A DNA stretch of 47,952 nt from Candidatus Woesebacteria bacterium RIFCSPLOWO2_01_FULL_39_23 (GCA_001793095.1 MGHG01000017.1:1-47952); one strand, 5' to 3'. Positions 1 to 20,039 are shown, counted from the first letter of the stretch. The notes: generated from the letters alone by a model not told the origin. Made by a program: numbers and translations.

Positions 1-86
1 GTTCCTTACAAAGAATTATTTTGGTTTTATTAAGCACATCCATATTTTACTCTGGAGTGCCGGATTTCTACGGAGAATACAGCGCA

Positions 87-118
87 AATTTGACTGTCGC
101 AGGTCAAATTCTTATACT
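87..118 (+). promoter_or_regulatory. Sigma70-type promoter overlapped by an inverted repeat
   Basis: A -35 box TTGACT (90-95) and a -10 box TATACT (113-118) lie 17 bases apart, close to the consensus. A perfect 8-base inverted repeat, AATTTGAC (87-94) and GTCAAATT (103-110), covers the -35 box and most of the spacer, the usual place for a repressor operator. The -10 box ends 11 bases before the ATG at 130 and no Shine-Dalgarno site lies between, so the mRNA is probably leaderless or nearly so. The operator role is inferred from position. Confidence 0.65.
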
Positions 119-129
119 TACGCATAACT

Positions 130-1698
130 ATGGGCGTTGAAAGACCTCGGGCTACTCTGATTCATCCTGACAGTAGAGGAAACTACGTTCAGTCAACGAT
201 TCCCAGAGAAAATTTGGGAATTGGTTACCTATCCTCGTATCTCCAAGCTAATGGTTTTGAAACTGAAATATACGACGCACGAATGGACAGGGATACCCCT
301 GAGGCCATAGCTCAGGAGATTCTGGAACGGGGTCTTCCTGCGATAGTCGGGCTTTCCTTGATTACTGTTGAGGGGGCAAGCTGGAGTGAAGATTTAGCCA
401 CTATCGTCAAGAAAGAAGGGCGGGGAAAGAATACCCCACATGTTACACTGGGCAATTATTTTCCTACTCTTCAACCAGAAAGGGCCTTAACAACTATTCC
501 TAGCGCTGATTCGGTGGTTCGTGGTGAAGGAGAATTAACCCTGCTTGATTTGGCTACCGGGGTGGTTTCAGGTAAAGATTGGCAAAATACGCAAGGAATT
601 ATTTACAGAGCTGATCAAGGCGTTCGAATAAATCCAAGAAGGGATAAAATACGAGACCTGGATCAGTTGCCGTATCCCGAACACTACGCTGCTAGGTATA
701 AGTTAACTGAATTCGCAATTGAAGGTTCCAGAGGTTGTTACTGTAGATGTTCTTTTTGTGCACTGGATCCCTTTACCGATGCAGATTCTCCTTCAACGAG
801 GTGGAGAGCCAGGACTCCAATAAGTATTGTGGGAGAAATTAAGGATACAAGAGCGAAGTATCCGAATATTGATCTGTACCGCTTTATTGACGCTGATTTT
901 ATCGGAGCTCCCAGGCATGCAGATAGAGTAAAAGAATTTGTTCGTGAGCTAAGGGATAGTCGACAAAACATCGGTTTTATTATTGATTCCAGGTCGAAGG
1001 AAGTAGTTAACGTGCCTAAAGACGTATGGCAAGATTTAAGGGATGTTGGGCTGAAGGAAGTTTATTTGGGTATAGAGACCGCTATTCCAGAGATCAAAAG
1101 GATGATGAGAAAGGGTGGCAGAGTTGAGGATGATAAAAGAGCTGTGGATACTTTGACAGACTTAGGGATTAATGTCCGTTTCGGTTGGATGATGGTTACT
1201 CCCTGGACCAGGGAAGAAGATGTTGAACAGAATGCTCAAGTTCTCCACGATTTGGGTTTTGCAAGGCTCGACAAATACTTTCAAGAAATGAATCTGATAC
1301 CAGGTACTGACGCAATGGAGCTGACTAAAAAAACTGCACAAATATGGCCTGACGCTGGTAATCCTGACTATTTTACTTACGAAGTACCAGCAAGAATTGA
1401 TAACCTGAGGAGGATTGGCAGGACTCTTACGAGGGAACATTTACCGTTTATGGAGAGATTTATGTTTTTACACAGGCAGGTTGAAAAGCAACTGGAAAGG
1501 GATACGACCTTTTCAGGAGCATTCCGAGATAGATTGAATGATCTTAACTTATATTTCTTTTTATCGGTTTTTACTGCCGCAAAAGAGCTTGGAGAAGGTG
1601 TAAGTGCTGAGGGGATTAATGATGCGGCTGCAAACTTAGCAAAAAGCTTTGAACACGAGGTTTTGCAATTGGAGCGGGAAATTGGAGAACAAAAGTAA
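130..1698 (+). CDS. B12-binding-domain radical SAM enzyme
   Basis: 522 residues. The first ~150 residues look like a cobalamin-binding Rossmann domain (start region with GIGYLSSYLQANGFETEIYD). A radical SAM core follows with the CxxxCxxC cluster motif at C203, C207 and C210, within GSRGCYCRCSFC. Family members use a [4Fe-4S] cluster and SAM to make a 5'-deoxyadenosyl radical; many with a B12 domain methylate unreactive carbons or rearrange rings. The substrate cannot be read from the sequence. It is the first gene of a run with 2-base gaps to the next two genes, so it very likely shares one mRNA with a second radical SAM enzyme and an NDK-like protein. Confidence 0.85.
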   Translation: MGVERPRATLIHPDSRGNYVQSTIPRENLGIGYLSSYLQANGFETEIYDARMDRDTPEAIAQEILERGLPAIVGLSLITVEGASWSEDLATIVKKEGRGKNTPHVTLGNYFPTLQPERALTTIPSADSVVRGEGELTLLDLATGVVSGKDWQNTQGIIYRADQGVRINPRRDKIRDLDQLPYPEHYAARYKLTEFAIEGSRGCYCRCSFCALDPFTDADSPSTRWRARTPISIVGEIKDTRAKYPNIDLYRFIDADFIGAPRHADRVKEFVRELRDSRQNIGFIIDSRSKEVVNVPKDVWQDLRDVGLKEVYLGIETAIPEIKRMMRKGGRVEDDKRAVDTLTDLGINVRFGWMMVTPWTREEDVEQNAQVLHDLGFARLDKYFQEMNLIPGTDAMELTKKTAQIWPDAGNPDYFTYEVPARIDNLRRIGRTLTREHLPFMERFMFLHRQVEKQLERDTTFSGAFRDRLNDLNLYFFLSVFTAAKELGEGVSAEGINDAAANLAKSFEHEVLQLEREIGEQK

Positions 1699-1700
1699 AT

Positions 1701-2894
1701 ATGTCAGAGAGATTTGTGTTACGAGACGAAGTTTTTGGCGGGACACTTTACGATAGAAGGCTGTTAAGACATACTTTTTTAACACGAGGAGAAATAGAAA
1801 GAGGTATTAGATCAAATGGTGATGTGGTTGAAAATTATGAGCATTGGCAAGCGGAAACGGGTAATCTGCCAAAAGATATTATTTATTCACCTGTAAGGGT
1901 CTACTTTGAAGCTACAAAAATGTGTAATCTACAATGTAAACACTGCTTTAATTCTTCTGGCTCTAGGGATAAGGATGAATTGACAACACAAGAAGTTTTT
2001 GAGTCGCTTCGTGGTATGAGACAAAATCATGTTTTTGACGTAAGGTTTACGGGCGGAGAGTTTACTTTAAGACCCGATTGGTTTGAAATCTTAGCATTGG
2101 CTAAAGAGCTGGGGTTTGCCGTTTCTTTGAATACGAACTGTGTTTACAGAGACAAGAGTGTGATAGACAGGCTTGCAGAATTAAATCTTGATCAGGTTAC
2201 AACAAGTATCGATGGTTCGAGAGAAAGACACGACGACATAAGAGGAGAGGGAAATTATGATAGGACGATGGAAACATTAAAGGAATTACACAGGAGAGGT
2301 GTAGTTTTGAGAACTAATACAGTGTTGACTGGAGAAAATGATGATGATATGGAAAATGTTATTCAGTCTGTTGGTGAATATATTAGCGAGATGAACTTCT
2401 TTCATATGAGATTAACTGGAAGAGCAAAAGAGATACAAGATGGTGCAATAACCTATAATCGGTTGCGTCAATTTAACGACCGTGCCATTGACATTGTCAG
2501 AAGGTATCCCGACATTAACATTATGTTTGGATCGTATGTTGCACGAATAAATTCAATAAGAATGAATGAACTTGGACTGAAAATAGGTGGACCAGATGGC
2601 TTCACAAGATTTAATTTGACACCCGATGGGTCAATGTATGCTGGTGGATATGCTCCATATATTGATTCTAAATTGAAATTAGGAAATATAAAGGAAGAAA
2701 GTTACAGTATGCTGAATGTCTGGAGATATTCGGAAAAGTTAAATGAATTCAGAGGCTTCAGTAACGAAGTGGTTGCAAGATGCCTGAGTTGTCCTGAACT
2801 TCTTGTTCATTGTGGAGGAATGAATGTTGAGATGGAACTTATAAAGTTAAATTCTATTCAAGGTAAAAATCCTTACTGCATTATGTTTGGATAG
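1701..2894 (+). CDS. SPASM/Twitch-type radical SAM enzyme
   Basis: 397 residues, starting 2 bases after the upstream stop. The radical SAM motif CNLQCKHC sits at C75, C79 and C82, followed by a GGE-type SAM-binding motif (FTGGEFTLR). The C-terminal region has a SPASM-like arrangement with TPDGSMYAGG, LGNI and CLSCPELLVHCGG, which suggests an auxiliary iron-sulfur cluster; the cysteine usually found just after the 'DG' segment is missing here. SPASM enzymes modify peptides, nucleosides or other small substrates. No obvious precursor peptide gene is visible nearby. I see no viperin-type motif (CNYxCGFCFH), so it should not be called viperin. Confidence 0.85.
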   Translation: MSERFVLRDEVFGGTLYDRRLLRHTFLTRGEIERGIRSNGDVVENYEHWQAETGNLPKDIIYSPVRVYFEATKMCNLQCKHCFNSSGSRDKDELTTQEVFESLRGMRQNHVFDVRFTGGEFTLRPDWFEILALAKELGFAVSLNTNCVYRDKSVIDRLAELNLDQVTTSIDGSRERHDDIRGEGNYDRTMETLKELHRRGVVLRTNTVLTGENDDDMENVIQSVGEYISEMNFFHMRLTGRAKEIQDGAITYNRLRQFNDRAIDIVRRYPDINIMFGSYVARINSIRMNELGLKIGGPDGFTRFNLTPDGSMYAGGYAPYIDSKLKLGNIKEESYSMLNVWRYSEKLNEFRGFSNEVVARCLSCPELLVHCGGMNVEMELIKLNSIQGKNPYCIMFG

Positions 2895-2896
2895 AT

Positions 2897-3673
2897 ATGG
2901 TATGCGAGCGCTGCGACGGTAAATCGGTATTTTTAAAACAACAAGCATTAGCTATTCTAGAGCAAAAAGGTCTTGAACCATCCGTGTTTGTTCGGGCAGA
3001 TTCAAGGACCCGCCTAGAACTTATCAGAGAACATTTCCATCTTGACGAGGTGTCTTCTATCGATACTCGAGAGATACTCCCCAATGCACCAAAGAACTTG
3101 GGATTGATAATAATCAAACCAGAAATGGTGCAGGCACAGTGTGTAATGGAACAATATTTGACAGGTCAAATTGGGGTAAAAATATTGTCTTCAACTGATT
3201 TTATCTATAAACCTCAAGAGTATTGGGCACTCCACGGTGCGGCACTTGCGGATTATCATGATCTGTTTCCCCATGGAGCACTTTTGTTTCTATTATTTGT
3301 GACAGCCCCTTCAAGGTTGGTTACTTTTGAACATTTTACGGCTTTGGAATACCAGGAAATTTTACGAAAGAAACACTCTGGTGTAAATGTTGAACCTCTC
3401 AGAGAGGGTGATGACTTGCAAGCTATCTTTACTAAATATTTTGTAAGAGGAGGACCAGATTCTATAAGAAAAACTGTGTGCGGACCAGAAATAGCAAGAA
3501 CTGGTCTTTTGTCTATGGATTCCAATTCATGTCCAGCAATATGTTGGGATTTTACTGGTTCATTTGGACAGAGAACAACAGATCAAAATGCAAGAACGTT
3601 TAATGGTATTCACAGCCCCAGGGATAGAAGTGAACTTTTGTTAGATCTTTCAGTTTTAAAACGCCTGTTGTAG
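2897..3673 (+). CDS. Divergent nucleoside diphosphate kinase-like protein
   Basis: 258 residues; ATG 2 bases after the upstream stop. The N-terminal ~65 residues hold a CxxC (MVCERCDG) and match nothing I recognise. From residue ~68 the protein follows the NDK fold: LGLIIIKPE with the phosphate-binding lysine K74, SIRKTVCG in the position of the GTIRGDF segment, and FNGIHSPRD near the C-terminus, where N236 and H239 match the NxxH active-site asparagine and phosphohistidine. The GSD that normally follows the histidine is SPR instead, and the middle is longer than in the ~140-residue family, so the substrate may not be an ordinary NDP. Its position behind two radical SAM genes suggests it phosphorylates their product or substrate; this is inference. 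Confidence 0.6.
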   Translation: MVCERCDGKSVFLKQQALAILEQKGLEPSVFVRADSRTRLELIREHFHLDEVSSIDTREILPNAPKNLGLIIIKPEMVQAQCVMEQYLTGQIGVKILSSTDFIYKPQEYWALHGAALADYHDLFPHGALLFLLFVTAPSRLVTFEHFTALEYQEILRKKHSGVNVEPLREGDDLQAIFTKYFVRGGPDSIRKTVCGPEIARTGLLSMDSNSCPAICWDFTGSFGQRTTDQNARTFNGIHSPRDRSELLLDLSVLKRLL

Positions 3674-3682
3674 CATAATTGT

Positions 3683-4180
3683 ATGAATAAATTAGTTCAA
3701 ACAAAGAAATTGTCGTACAGAGATAATGTTTCCTGTATTGTATTTAAAGGGGACAAATTTTTATTAGTTCAACAGATTAAATGGCCTGAAAATTTTTGGA
3801 AATTTCCTCAAGGAGGAGTTAATGGTGGAGAAACAGAAGAGCAGGCCGCCAAGCGGGAACTTTTAGAAGAGCTGGGTACTAACAAATTTAGATTTATAGG
3901 GAAGAGCATTCAGATAAACAAGTATGATTGGGATGATGAATCCGTTAAGCTGGCTGGTCATAGATGGCGTGGTCAGATTCAGAAATTTTTTCTGGTTGAA
4001 TGTTTGGGAGATGATAGGGATATAAAATTAAATGCTAATGAACTTCGTCGGTATAAATGGGTAAAGCTTAAAAATTTATTCGTCCACATAGATCACAACA
4101 ACAAAAATTATACTAATTATAAAAGCTCTATTGAAAAAATACTTCAGGAGTTTAATGATTGCTTTACTCAGAATGCCTAA
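3683..4180 (+). CDS. Nudix hydrolase, RppH/Ap4A-hydrolase-like
   Basis: 165 residues. A complete Nudix box (G-x5-E-x7-RE-x2-EE-x-G) spans residues ~44-66, with GGVNGGETEEQAAKRELLEE and preceding FWKFPQGG, which is the form seen in RppH and dinucleoside-polyphosphate hydrolases. The family hydrolyses a nucleoside diphosphate linked to another group, with Mg2+ bound by the box glutamates. It lies 9 bases after the NDK-like gene in the same direction and its 3' end overlaps the following methyltransferase gene. It may remove or process nucleotides for the cluster, or decap RNA; the sequence alone does not decide. Confidence 0.8.
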   Translation: MNKLVQTKKLSYRDNVSCIVFKGDKFLLVQQIKWPENFWKFPQGGVNGGETEEQAAKRELLEELGTNKFRFIGKSIQINKYDWDDESVKLAGHRWRGQIQKFFLVECLGDDRDIKLNANELRRYKWVKLKNLFVHIDHNNKNYTNYKSSIEKILQEFNDCFTQNA

Positions 4181-4787
4181 AGCCAAATTGACATTTAACT
4201 ACCTGAAACACACAAGCACAAATCCAGTTAGAAAGTGGACAATTAACTCGCTTTACAAGTCAATTTTCGAAATGTTAAAGAACATTAGCATTTCTTCTGT
4301 TTTGGATGCAGGTGGGGGTGAGGGGTTTACTTTGGATCGTTTTAAAAAAGCCAATATAGGTGAAAAGCTTGTATGTATCGACAACTCTCAAGAGGCAATT
4401 TCTCTTGGAAAGGAAATATTCTCTAATTTGGATTTAAGAATTGGAGATATTTACAAGTTGTCTTTCAGAGACAAAACCTTCGATTTAGTTATTTGTACTG
4501 AAGTTTTGGAGCACCTCACAACTCCTAGAAAGGCATTGAAGGAGATGATTAGGGTGTCAAAGAAATATTTGATTTTGTCGGTACCGAATGAGCCTATATT
4601 CAGTCTGAAAAACCTTGTAATTGGTCGAAATATTACTCGGTTTGGAAGTAGCAAGGGACATATTAATTGGTGGACAGCGAGGGCATTTGAGAAATTTGTT
4701 AAAAAGGAGAATGTAAAAATATTAAAAAGCAAACACCCCTTTCCATTTACGGTAGTTTTATTGAAGAAACTGAACTTTAAGAGCTAA
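4155..4787 (+). CDS. Class I SAM-dependent methyltransferase
   Basis: 210 residues from the ATG at 4155; a TTG at 4131 would give eight more. I prefer the ATG because AGGAG at 4146-4150 is a ribosome-binding site with suitable spacing. Motif I is VLDAGGGEGFTLDRF, the acidic loop follows as VCIDNSQEA, and VICTEVLEHL is the post-motif characteristic of the Methyltransf_11 type group. It overlaps the Nudix gene by 26 bases, so translation is probably coupled. It ends the co-directional cluster; the next two genes face the other way. The substrate is unknown, but small-molecule methylation in the same pathway as the radical SAM enzymes is a fair guess. Confidence 0.75.
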   Translation: MIALLRMPKAKLTFNYLKHTSTNPVRKWTINSLYKSIFEMLKNISISSVLDAGGGEGFTLDRFKKANIGEKLVCIDNSQEAISLGKEIFSNLDLRIGDIYKLSFRDKTFDLVICTEVLEHLTTPRKALKEMIRVSKKYLILSVPNEPIFSLKNLVIGRNITRFGSSKGHINWWTARAFEKFVKKENVKILKSKHPFPFTVVLLKKLNFKS

Positions 4788-4831
4788 AATCCGCGCAGAT
4801 TTAGACTTAATCAAGTATTTGTTATTAATAA

Positions 4832-5290
4832 TTAGTCTATTTCGCCCAGATATGAAGTTGGGAATTTAAATCCGTTCTTATGGTCTTTTATTAAAACTGT
4901 TACTAGTTTTTTAGGTCTGATGTCCAAGTTTTTTAGTTTATTAATATCAACCCATGTTTGCCAATGATTTCCATTGAACTCTTTATCTAAAACTCCCTCG
5001 ACTTCATTAAACTTATCGATGTCGCCTTTTATATATAACTCAAGACTGTGATCGTTAATTTCAGGTTTAATGTAGTCTCTTATATAAAGTATTTTTTCAA
5101 ATTTGAAATTAGCCTTACATTCTTCCTGTACCTCTCTGATGCACGCTTCTTTAATTGTTTCACCATATTCCATTTTGCCACCGATGAAAAAGTAAAAGTT
5201 TTCATCTTTGACGTAGGACATTAAGACCTTTCCTTTTTTGATGATAATAAGCCTTACTCTTGGTTTAATTTTATTATTAATATCATTCAT
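4832..5290 (-). CDS. Nudix hydrolase
   Basis: 152 residues from the ATG at 5290; a TTG at 5326 would add 12 residues and overlap the upstream gene. The Nudix box spans residues ~37-59 (GGKMEYGETIKEACIREVQEE), with the RE and EE pairs intact. The region before the box (VRLIIIKKGKVLMSYVKDENFYFFIGGKM) fits the general MutT-like fold. It is the second gene of a two-gene minus-strand unit, convergent with the methyltransferase gene across 44 bases. The substrate cannot be assigned; nucleotide sanitation or processing is the family role. Confidence 0.8.
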   Translation of the reverse strand: MNDINNKIKPRVRLIIIKKGKVLMSYVKDENFYFFIGGKMEYGETIKEACIREVQEECKANFKFEKILYIRDYIKPEINDHSLELYIKGDIDKFNEVEGVLDKEFNGNHWQTWVDINKLKNLDIRPKKLVTVLIKDHKNGFKFPTSYLGEID

Positions 5291-5294
5291 CTTA

Positions 5295-5528
5295 TTAAGA
5301 AAATCTTGGATCACAGTCTCTTTCAATTTCTTTTAGTTGTTGATCAGTTCTAATTGCCTTTAAGGCTTCTGATGGGGTTACTGCTGCAATTGGAATTAAT
5401 CCTTGACTTGCCCGTTCAGCAATTAATCTGTCGAATTTGGCAGTATCTGGAAGTATGTCCCACGCCAAACTTCCATCTTCTGCATTCCGAAACAAAATTG
5501 CCCGAGAACCACGTAAACTTTCAATCAT
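5295..5528 (-). CDS. Small protein of unknown function
   Basis: 77 residues from the ATG at 5528; a GTG at 5555 would add nine. I do not recognise a family. The protein is soluble and mixed in composition (IESLRGSRAILFRN, then PDTAKFDRLIAERASQGLIP and a charged C-terminus), with no signal peptide or membrane segment. Its stop is 4 bases before the start of the downstream Nudix gene, so the two are very likely one transcript. It could be a regulator or partner of that Nudix protein, but nothing in the sequence shows this. Confidence 0.5.
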   Translation of the reverse strand: MIESLRGSRAILFRNAEDGSLAWDILPDTAKFDRLIAERASQGLIPIAAVTPSEALKAIRTDQQLKEIERDCDPRFS

Positions 5529-5617
5529 ACTAATATTATTTACGAATTGTAACACAGGAATTTATTATTCCAAAATGATGTATTGAAGGCATAGACGGCC
5601 CAAGCCGAGTCTCAACA

Positions 5618-6016
5618 ATGATCATGTTATCTAGCGCTAAAGGTATTGATTAACACATGTCATTGCGTTTGTTGGAAACTGATAAGCTCGTGGGAAATAA
5701 AGAGAAAGCAGAAGGTTCTAAGTCAATTCAGACAAGAGTCCAAAAAGCCAGAGATATGCAAATTAAACGCTTTAAAGGTAGTAAATTTAAGTCAAACAGT
5801 GAGATGAGTTCAAAGGCAATTAAAGAATTCTGCAAATTATCTCCGGAATGTTATGCAATTCTTCGAAGTGCAGTTGCGTCAATGAACTTAACTGCCCGTT
5901 CTTACCATAAAGTTATTAAAGTTGCTCGAACAATTGCAGACTTGGAAGGTGTGGAAGTTATAACTACTACTCACATCGCCGAAGCACTTCAATATAGGCC
6001 GAAAGAAGAGGATTAA
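5618..6016 (+). pseudogene. comM: comM (YifB) 3'-terminal remnant
   Basis: The open frame at 5657-6016 (119 residues) is only the Mg-chelatase C-terminal domain of the ComM/YifB AAA+ protein: SIQTRVQKARDMQ, LTARSYHKVIKVARTIADLE and HIAEALQYR are hallmark segments. Intact ComM is ~500 residues and acts as a helicase in natural transformation. Homology continues upstream in frame across a TAA at 5651-5653 (GID-stop-HMSLRLLETDKL matches the usual RIDIHxxVxxLExxKL), so this is a truncated gene with an internal stop, not a small protein. The Walker A part is absent from the window. Two further copies of the last ~15-28 codons occur at 7142-7228 and 9840-9893. Confidence 0.75.
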
Positions 6017-6062
6017 TTTTCAAGTTTTGGATTATCTTAATCACTCCAGTTATAATCAAGAA

Positions 6063-6632
6063 ATGAAAAGCGTTTATTTTGCTACATCAAATTCCTGGAA
6101 ATTTAATTTGGCGAAAAGATTTTTTGAAAAACAAGGAATTGCGTTAAAGCAGTTCGATATAGATGTTCCGGAATCAAGAAGCGAGGAGGGAGAGATAATT
6201 GCCAAAGAAAAAGCTAACTTTGCCTTTGCAAAATTAAGAAAACCTTTATTTGTCCTGGATGGTTCCTTTCAAGTGCGAACTTTGAATAATTTCCCAAAAA
6301 CTTTTATAAAAATGTTTGATAAATACATTGGTGCGGAGGGATTATTAAAGTTGGTGCAGGATAAAGTAGATAGATATTGGGAATTATTAAACATACTTTG
6401 TTATAAAGATAATAAAAATGAAAAAGTATTTATCGGTGTCCAAAAAGGACAAGTAGTAAAAAAACTTACTCATAATAAAAAGGGGCTAATTAGAGACTTT
6501 GATAGGGTATTAGTTCCTGACGGATATGATAAGACCTTTGCGGAATTTAAGGATGAAGAAATTAAAGAATACGACAATAATGTCTGGCCGGAAGTTTTTG
6601 ACAAATTTATAGATTGGTACAAACAAAGATAA
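6063..6632 (+). CDS. HAM1/RdgB-like non-canonical NTP pyrophosphatase
   Basis: 189 residues from the ATG at 6063; a TTG at 6027 is possible but lacks a better signal. The N-terminus VYFATSNSWKFNLAKRFF matches the HAM1 signature (FATxNxxK), and the acidic centre FVLDGSFQV sits where the family binds metal; GYDKTFAEF matches the late segment before the conserved C-terminal helix. The family hydrolyses ITP, XTP and related NTPs to NMP and PPi, keeping altered purines out of DNA and RNA. The middle (RTLNNFPKTFIKMFDKYIG) is divergent, so the base specificity may differ. Its stop abuts the ATG of the next Nudix gene, a clear operon. Confidence 0.72.
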   Translation: MKSVYFATSNSWKFNLAKRFFEKQGIALKQFDIDVPESRSEEGEIIAKEKANFAFAKLRKPLFVLDGSFQVRTLNNFPKTFIKMFDKYIGAEGLLKLVQDKVDRYWELLNILCYKDNKNEKVFIGVQKGQVVKKLTHNKKGLIRDFDRVLVPDGYDKTFAEFKDEEIKEYDNNVWPEVFDKFIDWYKQR

Positions 6633-7064
6633 ATGAAAACAGTAATTCAAAAAATAATTGTCGCGGGGATTATTATATCTGGAGGAAAAGTTTTAATCAT
6701 CCAAAGAAGCTCGGATGAGGAAGTATTTCCTAATATTTGGGAAATACCCAGCGGAAAAAGAGAGTTTTTCGAAAAGTCCCAGGATGCTATTGTTCGTGAA
6801 GTTAAAGAAGAAACCGGAATTGATATTGAAGTTCTAATTCCTGTTGGCGTTTTTGAGTTTAAAGTTGAAAAAGAAAATGAAACAAGAGATTCGACCCAAA
6901 TATCTTTTCTTTGTAAACCAATAGGTAGCGTGGAAGTAAAATTAAGCGAAGAGCATCAAAATTTTGCGTGGGTTAAGGAAAACGAAATTGGTAAATATAA
7001 TTTAAGTGATGATATCAAAAAAATTGTTACGGAAACTTTCAATTTAGTAAATAAAGGTAATTAA
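6633..7064 (+). CDS. Nudix hydrolase, MutT-like
   Basis: 143 residues; the ATG follows the upstream TAA with no gap, so translation is coupled to the HAM1-like gene. The Nudix box lies at residues ~41-63 (GKREFFEKSQDAIVREVKEE followed by TG), and the preceding segment VLIIQRSSDEEVFPNIWEIPSG is typical of 8-oxo-dGTP-type MutT proteins. With HAM1 it would form a two-gene nucleotide-pool cleaning unit. It is the third Nudix gene in 3.4 kb. No promoter is obvious between the comM remnant and this pair apart from AT-rich DNA. Confidence 0.8.
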   Translation: MKTVIQKIIVAGIIISGGKVLIIQRSSDEEVFPNIWEIPSGKREFFEKSQDAIVREVKEETGIDIEVLIPVGVFEFKVEKENETRDSTQISFLCKPIGSVEVKLSEEHQNFAWVKENEIGKYNLSDDIKKIVTETFNLVNKGN

Positions 7065-7081
7065 TAAATTTCTTGAATCTG

Positions 7082-7134
7082 TATAAAGACTGCTCTATCG
7101 CTATATAACAATAGAGCAAGTTGAGGCTAAATAG
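7082..7134 (+). repeat. 53-bp perfect direct repeat, left copy
   Basis: Identical over all 53 bases to 11027-11079 in the same orientation. It contains an 8-base inverted repeat, TGCTCTAT and ATAGAGCA, around a 12-base loop, then GTTGAGGCTAAATAG. The copies bound a 3.9-kb segment holding two comM tail relics, the esterase/LPG-synthase pair and a membrane protein. It could be an attachment-like site, a small mobile element or a small RNA; no poly-T tract follows the hairpin, so a simple terminator is unlikely. Confidence 0.85.
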
Positions 7135-7141
7135 GTACTAG

Positions 7142-7228
7142 TTATTTAATTTGGGAGGAATTATAGAAATATCCACCACCCACATAGCCGAGGTACTCCA
7201 GTATAGATCAAAGGAATCAGAATTCTAA
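7142..7228 (+). pseudogene. Second comM 3'-end relic
   Basis: In frame this stretch reads LFNLGGIIEISTTHIAEVLQ then YRSKESEF and a stop. It aligns along 28 columns with the end of the larger comM remnant (IADLEGVEVITTTHIAEALQ then YRPKEED and a stop) but differs at many positions, so it is a diverged relative rather than a fresh duplicate. An in-frame TAG precedes it. It lies 7 bases after the left 53-bp repeat, and its end overlaps the 3' end of the opposing esterase gene. Confidence 0.7.
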
Positions 7229-8134
7229 ATATTTTCCTAAAAACTCAAGGGAAAATGAAATATTTCTTCTCCAAACTTCCCAGTCGTGCCAGCCGGACGT
7301 TATTTTAAATTCATGTTCGATTCCTTTTTGTCTCAGTATTTCATCCAGCTTCTGGTTTTGATTAATGTATCCCTTATTATCTTTTTCGCCGATATCAAAA
7401 TAGATGTAAGTTTTTGGGTTAAGCTCGCTATTTGGTAGGTATTCAAGAGGATTATTTGCAGAAAAATCATCGCTATTAATTAATTTCTTTGTAATCGATT
7501 CATTGTTTATAAAATAACCACTATGGCTGATTATTATGCCGAACTTGTCGTTATGGTGAAGACCAACGTTCATTGCTCCGTATGCGCCTGCTGATATACC
7601 GCCGATGGCCCGACTCTCTCTTTTATCTAAAGTTCTATAGGAAGCATCGATCTTTTCCATTAATTCCAGAATATAATCTTCAGCAAGTTGATTTATCTTT
7701 GTTGTTGCATTTAAATATTGGCTATCTTTTACAATAGGACCATTTCCATCCGGGAAAACCGCAATTAAGGCAGGCAATTTATTGCTGACTACTAATTCAT
7801 CCAGTTTATTTTGCAGATCGGCATTTATTAACCAGTCGATGTCCGAGCCCGGGAATCCGTGTAGCAGGTACAAAACCGGATATTGTTTGTCACTCTCTTC
7901 GAAATACACTTTGGGTAGGTATACCTTTGCCTCTTTTTGCAGTCCTGCATAAGAATTTGAGTTAAAGCTGAAGGTGTCTATTTTACTCTCGGAAGAATTT
8001 TTTCCGTAATTTCTTAGTTTATAGAAGGAATGTTGTAGTCCAGTAAATATAACCTCCCAGTGAAAAATGCCGTAGAGAAAAATGCTTAAAAAAAACAATA
8101 GTAAAAATTTTTTAGGTCCGGATATGACTACCAT
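7217..8134 (-). CDS. Membrane-anchored alpha/beta-hydrolase, esterase D family
   Basis: 305 residues from the ATG at 8134, whose first base overlaps the TGA of the upstream synthase gene (ATGA), a coupled start. Residues ~9-25 form a hydrophobic anchor or signal segment (FLLLFFLSIFLYGIFHW). The rest matches the PF00756 esterase family: YPVLYLLHGFPGSDIDW for the oxyanion region, the nucleophile S181 in GGISAGAYGA, and a late histidine in SGWHDWEVW. In several actinobacteria and enterococci a secreted hydrolase paired with an MprF-type synthase removes aminoacyl groups from phosphatidylglycerol; the same pairing is seen here, so an aminoacyl-lipid hydrolase is my preferred reading. Confidence 0.75.
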   Translation of the reverse strand: MVVISGPKKFLLLFFLSIFLYGIFHWEVIFTGLQHSFYKLRNYGKNSSESKIDTFSFNSNSYAGLQKEAKVYLPKVYFEESDKQYPVLYLLHGFPGSDIDWLINADLQNKLDELVVSNKLPALIAVFPDGNGPIVKDSQYLNATTKINQLAEDYILELMEKIDASYRTLDKRESRAIGGISAGAYGAMNVGLHHNDKFGIIISHSGYFINNESITKKLINSDDFSANNPLEYLPNSELNPKTYIYFDIGEKDNKGYINQNQKLDEILRQKGIEHEFKITSGWHDWEVWRRNISFSLEFLGKYLEF

Positions 8135-9825
8135 CAAGTATCTAACAGAAATTTCCTGGTATCTTTTTCAGTGAAATGTGCACGAACTAGGGAAAAGGTA
8201 ATCTTAGGTAGATCAGCAACATTTTTATATGCTAGATACTTGTGTTTCCATGAAGGATTAAACTTTTCTTTAAAGTTAAAAAGGTATTTATAACCGTAAA
8301 ATTGATTGAAATTATTGAAAAGATAACTTATTGCTTTGTCTATTAATTTTTCTTTTGGACCCACGTTGGCAAGCGGTGCCATACCCAAACTTACCTCTTG
8401 AAGTCCTAAATCTCTAAAATGCAATATTGTATTTGCAAGTGCTCCTTCGACTACGCCGTTAGGCGTTCCGCTTCCTCTTATCATTAAATCTAAAACCATT
8501 CCGTTTTGTTTTTTGTATGAATAAAAACTGAAAGCAGTTTGGATTTGGTTTTCACTAGAATAGACCACGAGAAGGTATGCCTTTGGCTCCAGAGGAAAGG
8601 GATAAAATCCCAAGGAAAAGGAAAGGGCGGGAGCCTTTTTGGCCTGCAACCAGCTTCTGTACAGTCTATCTACATCCTGTAAAACTGACCATGGGATTTG
8701 ATCCAGCTGATACCAAACCAGTTTCATCTCTAATTTCTTAATTCTATTAACTCCATACCTAACATCTTTCATCTCCGGCTTATCAATAGAAAAGTCAGAG
8801 GTATAAACTATTGCTTCTTCACCTACCTTCAGTAACTTTAAGCCGAGCTTTTTTAAAGAGACAGATGCTGTAGCAGTAATATTGTAGAAAGCGTAAATTA
8901 AACCCCTTGTTTCTATCCAATCTATAAATTCACGAAGTGTTAATAATTTATCTTTAGGCTCTCCTATTGGATCTCCCAAAACTACTGCAACGCCGCCTGC
9001 TACTTTGTAAGCCAGAAAGGAGGTTTTATTTTTGTTAAAAAAGTAAGATTTGTCGGCCATTAAACCGAAATAGCTTACTGAGTTTGTTGCATCTTGTAAC
9101 ATCATTTCTCTTGCTAAATTTTTTTGTTCGTCACTTGGTTTTTTCTTGTCTATAAGAGGCACGAAAAGTGCCGCAAAAATAAGACCGATGCTTATAATTC
9201 CAGAGGTAGAAATTGAGTCTTCGAACCAAACAGCATGGCGTGTTCGTGGAACCAAAATATCTGTCCCGACACCGAAGATACTATAAAAGTAATCGTTAGA
9301 AATGTTTGAAATTGTAACTGGGTTTGAAAATTGGCCTTGGAGTATATAAAAACCAAAAAATGAATAAACGAAAAGGAGGATCAAGATAATTCCTGACGTT
9401 TTTATACTTTCTAAAAGTCCGAATTTTGAGCTTTTGACCGTAAAAAGATTCTTGAAGAACACCAATATAGTTAAAATAAAAAGGAGCATTATACTTTCCT
9501 CGTAGTCAAGCCTTTTTATTAAGTGAAGGACAATTGAGAGCGCGATAAGGATAACGCTTAGCCACCAAGAGCGTTCTTTTCTTTGCCATAAACCTCTTGC
9601 TAAAAAGACCAGGAATATCCCGAAAATAATTACGAGTGTTCTTGAGAGATGAATTATTCCCAAAGGAAAAAGATCTTCCACTAACTCGATTCTTACTGGA
9701 AGTTTCAAGAATAAACTGGATGCAATATTTAACAAACCGGAAAGGAAAATAAGTACCGCGATGAAATGAGAAATATTTATATACATATGCCCCCATTCTC
9801 TTGTCAATTTAATTTTACTCTTCAT
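8134..9825 (-). CDS. MprF-like phosphatidylglycerol lysyltransferase
   Basis: 563 residues. The N-terminal ~235 residues contain about six hydrophobic helices; the C-terminal half is the DUF2156 tandem-GNAT domain of MprF/LysX proteins (MLQDATNSVSYFGLMADKSY near residue 240, GVAVVLGDPIGE, then EVSLGMAPLANVG and FYGYKYLFNFKEKFNPSWKH). The family transfers an aminoacyl group from tRNA to phosphatidylglycerol, reducing the negative charge of the membrane and raising resistance to cationic peptides. The amino acid cannot be told from sequence. It lacks the extra N-terminal flippase length of full MprF. It forms an operon with the esterase downstream. Confidence 0.85.
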   Translation of the reverse strand: MKSKIKLTREWGHMYINISHFIAVLIFLSGLLNIASSLFLKLPVRIELVEDLFPLGIIHLSRTLVIIFGIFLVFLARGLWQRKERSWWLSVILIALSIVLHLIKRLDYEESIMLLFILTILVFFKNLFTVKSSKFGLLESIKTSGIILILLFVYSFFGFYILQGQFSNPVTISNISNDYFYSIFGVGTDILVPRTRHAVWFEDSISTSGIISIGLIFAALFVPLIDKKKPSDEQKNLAREMMLQDATNSVSYFGLMADKSYFFNKNKTSFLAYKVAGGVAVVLGDPIGEPKDKLLTLREFIDWIETRGLIYAFYNITATASVSLKKLGLKLLKVGEEAIVYTSDFSIDKPEMKDVRYGVNRIKKLEMKLVWYQLDQIPWSVLQDVDRLYRSWLQAKKAPALSFSLGFYPFPLEPKAYLLVVYSSENQIQTAFSFYSYKKQNGMVLDLMIRGSGTPNGVVEGALANTILHFRDLGLQEVSLGMAPLANVGPKEKLIDKAISYLFNNFNQFYGYKYLFNFKEKFNPSWKHKYLAYKNVADLPKITFSLVRAHFTEKDTRKFLLDT

Positions 9826-9839
9826 TTCAAACTTTCATA

Positions 9840-9893
9840 GAAAAACATATAACAGAAGCCCTTGAGTACAGACCACAAGAGGAAGATTTGTGA
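9840..9893 (+). pseudogene. Third comM 3'-end relic
   Basis: In frame this reads EKHITEALEYRPQEEDL and a TGA stop, matching the comM C-terminus HIAEALQYRPKEED. It is shorter than the other two relics and differs from both, so the three do not descend from one recent duplication. It lies just upstream of the start of the minus-strand LPG-synthase gene and before the promoter of the 9973 gene. Confidence 0.6.
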
Positions 9894-10985: not shown

Positions 10986-11026
10986 AGACTTCACTTGTAA
11001 GAGTTTAATTTTAAGAATAAATACTT

Positions 11027-11079
11027 TATAAAGACTGCTCTATCGCTATATAACAATAGAGCAAGTTGAGGCTAAATAG
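11027..11079 (+). repeat. 53-bp perfect direct repeat, right copy
   Basis: Identical to 7082-7134, same orientation. It ends 8 bases before the 3' end of the minus-strand ksgA gene. Unlike the left copy it is not followed by a comM relic. The distance between copies is 3,945 bases. Confidence 0.85.
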
Positions 11080-12046: not shown

Positions 12047-12112
12047 ATGAGAATACTAGTAGTTGAGGACGGACAGATTCAATCTTGCTGTAGCAAGATT
12101 TCATTGTTCTAA
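12047..12112 (+). pseudogene. Relic of a response-regulator 5' end
   Basis: An ATG at 12047 begins MRILVVEDGQIQ and runs to a stop after 21 residues. The first eight residues copy the start of the real gene 70 bases downstream (MRILIVEDE), with mostly synonymous differences in the DNA. After residue 9 the similarity stops at a short palindrome (12081-12100). This looks like the leftover head of a related gene rather than a functional leader peptide, although a short leader ORF cannot be excluded. Confidence 0.5.
12081..12100 (+). repeat. Perfect inverted repeat with 2-base loop
   Basis: AATCTTGCT (12081-12089) and AGCAAGATT (12092-12100) flank GT. It lies between the relic head and the true start of the response-regulator gene. 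A poly-T tract does not follow. It could be an operator, an attenuator or part of a small inserted palindrome. Confidence 0.6.
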
Positions 12113-12116
12113 TTTT

Positions 12117-12791
12117 ATGCGAATACTAATTGTAGAAGATGAACATAAAATTGCAAATTCAATTAAAAGAGGACTTATTCAGGAAGGTTTTGCTGTTGAT
12201 ATAGAGTATGACGGCACCGGTGGATATGATATGGCAACGAGTGAGGACTATGATGTCATTGTGCTTGATTTGATGTTGCCCGGCATGGACGGATTGACGC
12301 TATGCAGAAAATTGCGCGAGGGGAAAAATCACACACCCATTTTGATTCTTACCGCCAAAGGTGCACTCCAAGATAAAATTGGCGGACTTAATTACGGCGC
12401 CGACGATTATTTAGTCAAACCCTTTGCTTACGAGGAGCTTCTTGCCCGCGTTCGGGCTTTAACCAGAAGACCTCAGGACGGAGGCGAAACTATACTTAAA
12501 ATGAACGATCTTGAATTGGACAGTATTACGTATGAGGTCAAAAGAGATAATAAATCTATAAATTTGTCGCGCAAAGAATTTGCACTATTAGAATATTTAA
12601 TGAGGAATTCCGGAAAAATTTTAAATAAAGATCAGATAATTGCCCATGTTTGGGACTATGACGCGGATATCCTGCCTAATACCGTCGAAGTTTATATAGG
12701 CTACTTGAGAAAAAAAATTGATTTGGCCTTTCCTAAAAGCAAGTCATTAATTCAGACTATTAGGGGGTTTGGATACAAGATTTCAATATAG
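12117..12791 (+). CDS. OmpR/PhoB-family response regulator
   Basis: 224 residues from the ATG at 12117; a longer frame from 12063 adds 18 residues without family similarity. The receiver domain starts MRILIVEDEHK with the acidic pair, carries the phospho-acceptor Asp in DVIVLDLMLPG and the conserved Lys in ADDYLVKPF. The C-terminal winged helix is typical (SRKEFALLEYLMRN, VEVYIGYLRKKID, IQTIRGFGYKI). It should bind DNA when phosphorylated by the histidine kinase encoded 13 bases downstream. Genes for small secreted or stress proteins follow at 14093 and 14772 and are possible targets. Confidence 0.9.
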   Translation: MRILIVEDEHKIANSIKRGLIQEGFAVDIEYDGTGGYDMATSEDYDVIVLDLMLPGMDGLTLCRKLREGKNHTPILILTAKGALQDKIGGLNYGADDYLVKPFAYEELLARVRALTRRPQDGGETILKMNDLELDSITYEVKRDNKSINLSRKEFALLEYLMRNSGKILNKDQIIAHVWDYDADILPNTVEVYIGYLRKKIDLAFPKSKSLIQTIRGFGYKISI

Positions 12792-12804
12792 AGTAGCTAG
12801 TACA

Positions 12805-13851
12805 ATGTTCAAACATGCTCGGATTAAATTAACGCTATGGTATTTGGTAATAATAATGCTAGTGTCGGGGTTTTTCAGTCTTATCGTTTATCGTGGGTTT
12901 ACTAAAGAAATTGGCAGAGGATTACGTTTTCAAACAATGCACGCACTTCCCGGTACGAGTTTTTTTATTCCCGGTTCAAACGGCTATTCGAGAATTTTAC
13001 CATTCGTAATCTACCCCGAAGATACTGCTCCGGCTGAAATGGCCGAGATAATAAGTCTTGCAAAGCGGCGCTTTGCTTTACAGTTACTTATTATAAATAG
13101 TGGTATTTTTGTTCTGGCTGGGACTGCTGGGTATTTCCTTGCAGGTAAAACTCTGACTCCGATTGAATTAATGGTTGACGAGCAAAAACGTTTTGTAGCC
13201 GACGCCTCTCACGAGCTCAGAACGCCGTTAACATCAATGAAATCGGGGATCGAAGTTGTTTTGAGGGACAAAAAACTTGATCTAAGAGATGCAAAGAGTC
13301 AACTTAAAAGTAATTTGGAGGAGGTAGACAGGATGAAATATTTTACGGATAACCTATTGTCTCTTTCTAGATATGAGGCAAATGGCAACGATATGCTGAT
13401 AGAAGAAGTTGATTTAGCGGAGGCTGTAAATCAAGCAATTGAGAGGAACTTAGCTTTGGCGAAAGAGAAAAAAATCGAAATTAAGAAAAATTTAAAAGAA
13501 GTAAGTGTAAAAGGAAATCCCCAAAGTTTGGTGGAAATCATCTCCATCCTTATAAACAATGCCATAAAGTACTCTTCGAATAAAAAAGAGGTAAAGGTGA
13601 CAGTTAAGAAAGGTAAAAAACACGCTATTGTAGAAGTTGTAGATCAAGGAATTGGAATTTCAAAAAAAGATTTCCCTCACGTTTTTGATCGCTTTTATCG
13701 GGCTGATTCTTCAAGAAGTAAAAGTAAAGTTGACGGCTATGGCTTAGGTCTTTCTATCGCTAAGTCGATTGTCGATTTACATAAAGGTTCAATCTCTATT
13801 GAGAGTGAAGAAGGTAAAGGCTCAGTCTTCACGGTACGACTTCCGAAATAA
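12805..13851 (+). CDS. Membrane sensor histidine kinase
   Basis: 348 residues from the ATG at 12805; the TTG at 12769 would overlap the regulator gene. Two hydrophobic helices (about residues 9-29 and 88-110) bracket a short outer loop of ~55 residues, so the sensed signal is probably in the membrane or envelope. The HisKA box has H136 in VADASHELRTPLTS; the ATPase domain has the N box (ILINNAIKYSS), GIGIS and GYGLGLSIAKSIV. No HAMP or PAS domain is clear. It ends just before a series of strong hairpins. Confidence 0.9.
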   Translation: MFKHARIKLTLWYLVIIMLVSGFFSLIVYRGFTKEIGRGLRFQTMHALPGTSFFIPGSNGYSRILPFVIYPEDTAPAEMAEIISLAKRRFALQLLIINSGIFVLAGTAGYFLAGKTLTPIELMVDEQKRFVADASHELRTPLTSMKSGIEVVLRDKKLDLRDAKSQLKSNLEEVDRMKYFTDNLLSLSRYEANGNDMLIEEVDLAEAVNQAIERNLALAKEKKIEIKKNLKEVSVKGNPQSLVEIISILINNAIKYSSNKKEVKVTVKKGKKHAIVEVVDQGIGISKKDFPHVFDRFYRADSSRSKSKVDGYGLGLSIAKSIVDLHKGSISIESEEGKGSVFTVRLPK

Positions 13852-19592: not shown

Positions 19593-20039
19593 ATGCGACT
19601 TCTTATTCAAAGAGTTTCAAAATCATCAGTGCAGGTGAGAAATAAAGTAGTTGGGGAAATTGGTGTAGGATTATTAGTTTTAGTCGGTATAAAAGATGGC
19701 GATAATGCCGATGATGCGCGTTTTTTAGCAGAGAAGTTGTCAAAATTTAGAATAATGGCCGATGGGAATGGGAAGATGAATATATCGGTTAAAGATCTGA
19801 ATGCAGAGGTATTGGCTGTTTCCCAATTTACTTTATATGCCGACACATCAGGAGGTAATAGACCGTCATTTATTAAAGCTGCCGATCCTGCGGTCGCAAA
19901 GAAAATATATGAGCATTTTGTTGATAGACTTAAAAGTTTTGATATGCGGGTCGAAACTGGGAGTTTCGGTGACTATATGAAAATAGACGCGAAGCTTGAT
20001 GGACCGGTCACGATAATAATGGAAAGTAGTAATGGTTGA
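19593..20039 (+). CDS. dtd: D-aminoacyl-tRNA deacylase
   Basis: 148 residues, the normal Dtd length. It has the family segments MRLLIQRVSKSSVQV, LLVLVGIKDGD, the catalytic-site motif SQFTLYADTSGGNRPSF and, late, LDGPVTIIME, in place of the usual NDGPVT. Dtd removes D-amino acids (and glycine wrongly loaded on tRNA-Ala) from tRNA. The start has a -10 box 6 bases upstream. The stop is 2 bases before the ATG of the CAP-domain gene, so the two are probably co-transcribed. Confidence 0.92.
   Translation: MRLLIQRVSKSSVQVRNKVVGEIGVGLLVLVGIKDGDNADDARFLAEKLSKFRIMADGNGKMNISVKDLNAEVLAVSQFTLYADTSGGNRPSFIKAADPAVAKKIYEHFVDRLKSFDMRVETGSFGDYMKIDAKLDGPVTIIMESSNG

Follow-up and report, generated by a model that had tools for sequence, protein, structure and literature searches.

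Displaced comM 3' ends and the genes between them

The window analyzed here is the complete contig C17 (47,952 b) of Candidatus Woesebacteria bacterium RIFCSPLOWO2_01_FULL_39_23, whose draft genome amounts to 1.13 Mb in 18 contigs, with a completeness of 99% and a contamination of 1.7%. The window contains three 3' ends of comM, designated t1, t2 and t3 (Table 1). All are on the plus strand and they differ mutually in sequence, as had been predicted. For t1, comM homology runs from codon 454 at 5645 to the stop at 6014–6016, with an in-frame stop at 5651–5653; the remaining ORF (5657–6016, 119 aa) matches PF13335 (Mg_chelatase_C) at 113.5 bits, and over 5645–6016 the segment is 89% identical to the intact comM of the same genome. 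The two shorter ends were identified by tblastn of t1 against the window, and in a wider profile search (336 kb) t2 scored 20 bits (E 2e-4) and t3 10.2 bits (E 0.18). A fourth displaced comM end of this genome, tailA, lies on contig C15 (L012:18895–19296). Several long displaced ends have an ATG at the junction and an open frame (window 5645–6016; L012:18898; L048:13050; L051:9895), and their reading frames suggest that a free Mg_chelatase_C domain protein could be made from them.

Table 1. Features of the window, with positions counted from its first letter
Feature	Position	Strand	Remarks
Accessory block left of t1	1–5555		two radical SAM proteins, Nudix, methyltransferase, Nudix
Junction left of t1	5632–5653	+	element arm ..GCTAAAGGT and core region ATTGATTAA
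t1, displaced comM 3' end	5645–6016	+	codons 454–576 and stop; whole Mg_chelatase_C domain; mobile type
P-prime 29-mer	5654–5682	+	CACATGTCATTGCGTTTGTTGGAAACTGA; encodes SLRLLETD type
HAM1-like NTP pyrophosphatase (cargo)	6063–6632	+	PF01725
Nudix hydrolase (cargo)	6633–7064	+	PF00293, 61 bits
56-bp hairpin repeat abutting t2	7079–7134	+	second copy at 11024–11079, 98% identical
t2, short displaced comM 3' end	7148–7228	+	about 26 codons and stop; tblastn with t1, E 2e-6
Putative esterase (cargo)	7217–8137	-	PF00756, 94.5 bits; 3' end overlaps last codons of t2
MprF-like lysylphosphatidylglycerol synthase C-domain protein (cargo)	8134–9825	-	PF09924, 197.6 bits
t3, short displaced comM 3' end	9846–9893	+	15 codons and stop; tblastn with t1, E 1e-4
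Response regulator and histidine kinase	12063–13851	+	76% and 59% identity to L049 (G009)
DTD (D-aminoacyl-tRNA deacylase)	19593–20039	+	TIGR00256, 171 bits; sole copy in genome

Two gene pairs lie between the tails, HAM1 with Nudix and esterase with lysylphosphatidylglycerol synthase, and Pfam matches bear out both assignments; the synthase also matches the bifunc_MprF model at 319 bits, which is below its cut-off. The HAM1 gene has a single close homologue in the order (74% identity, all others ≤34%), and that homologue lies in the comM island of G031, a member of another genus (L062:11159–11728). The Nudix gene at 4832–5326 has homologues (46–49%) in the comM islands of G009, G013 and G031. 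Because the response regulator–kinase block is common with G009, where it lies downstream of the comM island and belongs to the lineage's flank, the end of the recent island probably falls between t3 and 12063.

The 56-bp hairpin repeat, which has further diverged copies on C7, C4, C9 and C1 and matched no Rfam family, is probably not an attachment site, as it is dispersed across the genome and missing at the long displaced ends. A tRNA gene as integration site was also rejected, there being no tRNA genes in the window; an Rfam search of positions 1–20100 gave no match. Palindromic repeats of the type CTGAGC..AGTCGAAG were seen within or beside displaced comM ends at L062:4840–4939, L049 (reversed) 8567–8653 and L012:18940–18990, and in tailA such a repeat is even in frame.

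The comM–DTD locus in relatives and in the source genome

The native order in related Woesebacteria is SOD-comM/DTD-CAP-nth: comM has SOD or a histidine-kinase region on its left, and DTD, a CAP-like protein and nth on its right. The distance from comM to DTD is 34 bp in G039, 243 bp in G001, 5.9 kb in G013, 6.2 kb in G041 and 7.7 kb in G031. G039 and G001 thus represent empty sites, with an uninterrupted comM adjoining DTD. In G013 and G024 the last displaced end is found about 50 bp before DTD. The congeners G041 and G013, with 91% amino acid identity in the 5' part of comM, carry wholly different cargo at the same site, including argG/argH in G013. An intact comM in relatives, with the cassettes absent or replaced by others, had been proposed as a check on the original prediction, and both states were found. 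Units in relatives measure about 3.5–6 kb and contain glycosyltransferases, radical SAM proteins, kinases, Nudix, MurA-like and argG/argH-like genes, the names having been assigned by reading the translations and not in all cases by profile. No recombinase was recognized among the translations of these units.

In the source genome, C15 carries comM with its left neighbors; the window carries the genome's sole DTD, oriented like t1–t3. The C15 comM is intact and open (L012:2918–4654, 578 aa). Small metabolic genes (SDR, cupin, PNPOx, EamA transporter, deaminase, Nudix and GNAT) occupy part of the interval between it and tailA, which also holds the overlapping genes of a tyrosine and a large serine recombinase, a gene for a LexA-like repressor, and genes for an oligonucleotide cyclase and a membrane effector. 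The cyclase and effector (L012:16837–18817) form a CBASS-like defence pair beside the LexA-like regulator. tailA is 0.7 kb before the end of C15, and the contig ends in an apparent insertion sequence that is repeated at other contig ends. DTD would be the right border of the locus, and the window the right part of one comM–DTD island. In the simplest reading, the right end of C15 leads through an uncovered stretch to the left end of C17, which would place t1–t3 in one comM–DTD island and make the accessory block at 1–5555 a continuation of the island from C15. No overlap between the end of C15 and the start of C17 was found, and the join is not covered by sequence.

The entry point within comM

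Among 115 genomes searched, six had more than one PF13335 match. The long displaced copies, which come from five genomes (t1, tailA, and copies in G041, G062, G020 and G031), start at codon 454–456 in six of six cases. Such a fixed crossover point is a mark of gene-restoring integrative islands. The original prediction had placed entry at the comM 3' end; the real entry point, codon 454–457, is about 120 codons upstream. The DNA to its left is not comM and contains a loosely shared motif (AAGG.AYTGAT..); to its right stands CAC, followed by comM. Aligned, the six junctions show a similar GG/GGA and AYTGAT..(G)CACAT, with element DNA left and comM right; to the left of the core, the element arm is a short stretch with loose conservation. 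In two displaced copies TAA or TAG immediately precedes CAC; therefore the exchange would take place at or after the His457 codon, and in t1 the exchange point would be the CAC at 5654–5656. A search for site symmetry by which to place the core yielded no clear palindrome.

Immediately right of the entry point is a 29-mer, P-prime, which we propose from its distribution to be the element-borne half of the attachment site. At 0–1 mismatch P-prime occurs at six sites in four genera, all within comM or displaced copies of it and nowhere else in the family. CAYRTNTCATTGCGTTTGTTGGARACNGA follows the core in the intact comM of G000, G020 and G041, in t1, and in the displaced ends of G020 and G031. 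Among 84,980 species genomes scanned, P-prime was present only in three Woesebacteria records, corresponding to G041, G020 and G031, and a scan of viral contigs returned none; comM-like matches in phage records are <60% identical to t1.

The tree of the 3' part was built without the P-prime arm. The 3' parts of G000, t1, G020, G031 and G041 form one clade (99/97) in all bootstraps. The 5' parts of the same genomes need four changes in all bootstraps, a single clade is rejected (AU p = 0.0012), and the 5' part of G041 is sister to that of its congener G013 (100/99). At the nucleotide level, the 5' part is 69% identical between G000 and G020 and 74% between G041 and G013; the corresponding values for the 3' part are 83% and 56%. 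By these comparisons, comM in four genera has kept its own 5' part and received a shared, mobile 3' part. Ends of native type persist as displaced copies (tailA, and in G041 at L048:13044) that are about equally related to all other comM genes. The target gene is restored by element DNA, with the displaced fragment at the far border. The proposal that successive elements entered comM, each bringing its own version of the end, is supported by the empty sites, by the differing cargo of congeners and by the separate clustering of 3' ends and 5' parts. The further suggestion of a different donor for each tail stands in part, t1 being of mobile and tailA of native type; t2 and t3 are too short to be placed.

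Short tails comprise t2, t3, three examples in G031 and one in G009. They keep the last 13–26 codons on the comM strand and end in the stop, 13 codons being about the limit of detection. The form 'AEALQYRPxEEDF-stop' recurs in the comM islands of relatives (L062, L049) and is also the form of t3; the control DNA (226 kb) yielded no short tails. These tails are probably the product of erosion, because one remnant in G031 (L062) holds P-prime, deletions and a tail of the last 15 codons, as if half-eroded.

Recombinases at and beyond the locus

It had been noted that no integrase is present. None was found in the cargo-only units, but the same island does have recombinases, on C15. The best NCBIfam model for the large serine recombinase is CcrC, that of SCC, at 87 bits versus a cut-off of 900. 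Its gene lies between comM and tailA, 3.8 kb from tailA, and is absent from the other units; it has no close relative in the family, and none was confirmed in viral contigs. The tyrosine recombinase (L012:12541–13446) is XerA/integrase-like and scores below the integron-integrase cut-offs. At least one serine recombinase was present in each of the nine genomes with displaced ends that were checked (9/9). The four P-prime genomes have no serine recombinase family in common, and no comM tail was found near the other serine recombinases fetched from them.

Other families of the class have serine recombinases beside comM 3' fragments, or a comM interrupted at codons ~368–434. Thus comM is a general target in the class, and is usually interrupted. 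In two families, in G038 (C1:462164–504261; L052, L105, L106) and G082 (C1:312073–351071; L107, L108), comM is split at codon ~368–381 by inserts of 37–40 kb. In both, the comM 5' half directly adjoins a tyrosine recombinase (356/360 aa) that is similar between the two, and the inserts contain similar large proteins; they look like related prophages. Single open frames in G093 (C9:824706–826796, L100; 788 aa) and G150 (C20, L101; 646 aa) span both a serine recombinase and a C-terminal fragment of comM, and look as though the recombinase gene had its attachment site at the 3' end.

Probable serial insertion and its alternatives

Serial, gene-restoring, site-specific insertion at comM is well supported by sequence comparison, which reveals a fixed breakpoint, empty sites, mobile 3' ends and differences in cargo. 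We assign a probability of roughly 0.8 to this reading, with a composite island of which the window is the right half. Entry would be site-specific at the codons for I-D-I/L-H (454–457), and the core would coincide with the His457 CAC or adjoin it. Each element would carry half an attachment site, a full replacement of codons 457–576 (Mg_chelatase_C) and cargo genes. Insertion would fuse the chromosomal comM 5' part to the element's 3' part, so that comM stays open, and the previous 3' part, truncated at codon 454, would be displaced downstream. Further insertions at this point would stack the units, the newest adjoining comM, and leave old gene ends like growth rings. t1 would be one displaced end, with t2 and t3 older ends shortened by deletion, partly where palindromic repeats spread. 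Most units lack a recombinase and would need the enzyme in trans, the C15 serine and tyrosine recombinases being candidates. A circular intermediate would have the element arm ..AAGGWAYTGAT.. joined to CACATATCATTGCG... A strict newest-first stack is opposed by one observation: tailA is of native type, yet t1, further right, is of mobile type.

In a variant of this scheme, the tyrosine recombinase and not the serine recombinase acts at codon 457, or a second enzyme, acting at the last 15 codons, joins the one at codon 457 and gives rise to the short tails. The tyrosine recombinase is a third, non-housekeeping copy in its genome, and tyrosine recombinases adjoin the split comM of G038 and G082. 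Further, five short tails keep just 13–15 codons, and three begin near the His codon at ~560, a clustering that is unexpected from plain erosion and that might reflect a second insertion site. In the other P-prime genomes, however, no ortholog of this enzyme stands out beyond Xer-type copies. The short tails often abut repeats, and the half-eroded L062 remnant also speaks for erosion. We consider the variant somewhat unlikely.

Homologous recombination following natural transformation, which the original prediction had allowed as the agent, would bring in comM fragments and neighboring genes of other lineages and leave duplicated ends. The mobile and native 3' ends do diverge like those of different lineages. 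Moreover, two copies in G062 are identical over codons 465–540 and different at the end, as from gene conversion or a single crossover, a pattern that suggests conversion or a second site. Transformation predicts crossovers anywhere in the gene, whereas the long copies share one starting codon in every case, and the unrelated DNA next to it carries a similar short motif. Random homologous crossovers fail to explain this fixed breakpoint and the non-comM arm, or the near invariance of the P-prime arm in a 3' part that otherwise drifts. Transformation is accordingly an improbable agent. An assembly or binning artefact joining tails from different strains or genomes, for which the 18-contig draft and the repeated insertion sequence at the end of C15 could be cited, is very improbable given that t1–t3 and DTD lie on a single contig that has the gene order of the family, that independently assembled genomes have the same arrangement, and that completeness is high and contamination low.

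Relation to known systems

Serial gene-restoring insertion has precedents. In Dehalococcoides, ssrA-specific islands lie in tandem downstream of one single-copy gene whose 3' end is restored, with displaced ends (20 bp) left behind; some carry a CcrB-like serine recombinase and 15 are without an integration module (PMC3146451). The comM islands are alike in the stacked restoration of one gene's 3' end, the displaced ends and the units without recombinase. They differ in that the target is a protein gene instead of an RNA gene, that ~120 codons, a whole domain, are exchanged, and that no conserved integration module lies beside the site. SCC cassettes are stacked at rlmH, which stays functional; they use a serine recombinase, and cargo-only pseudo-SCC elements exist. 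Stacking at a protein-coding gene that is kept functional is common to both systems. In SCC only the last few rlmH codons are involved, whereas elements enter comM 120 codons ahead of its end and bring diverged alleles as replacement segments. The Woesebacteria islands are not SCC: the target is comM codon 457 and not the rlmH 3' end, and ccrA/ccrB and ccrC are lacking, the C15 serine recombinase scoring far below the CcrC cut-off.

AbaR islands are transposon-type elements that break Acinetobacter comM in the middle. They share comM as an island site but show neither gene restoration nor displaced diverged ends, and the open comM on C15 does not have the interrupted, AbaR-like state. The arrays resemble integrons in that small cargo units lacking a recombinase of their own share a single point of entry; they differ in having no adjacent integron integrase above cut-off and in repeating a coding segment of comM instead of an attC hairpin. 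Genes of the comM/Mg chelatase family are among the leading targets of large serine recombinases, being that of 12.4% of the site-specific ones (PMC10083194) and also of sr1WO of phage WO (PMC9203015). Phage WO interrupts its target gene (PMC9203015), whereas the Woesebacteria islands restore comM. In the literature on islands in Patescibacteria/Microgenomates and on comM as an island site, mainly open-access, we found no report of such an arrangement, an absence that is weak evidence. In sum, the kind of island is known from Dehalococcoides and SCC, and what sets the present case apart is comM as the target, the exchange of a whole domain, and recurrence in CPR bacteria.

How streamlined CPR bacteria gain genes is little understood, and here insertions are layered at a single, defined point of entry, in a lineage whose metabolism is characteristically variable. 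comM, a favorite target of serine recombinases that is tied to DNA uptake, is kept whole by an element-borne replacement of the full domain and is not broken. The site, the half-site sequence and the candidate recombinases provide a specific basis for testing. More tentatively, the Woesebacteria may possess a cassette-capture system that is integron-like in effect, in which comM is the sole landing site, recombinase-less units with the fixed half-site and a C-terminal domain of comM circulate between genera, and a recombinase acting in trans adds units next to comM. Each insertion would then swap the C-terminal domain of the DNA-uptake helicase and, if this is true, such swaps would possibly retune transformation.
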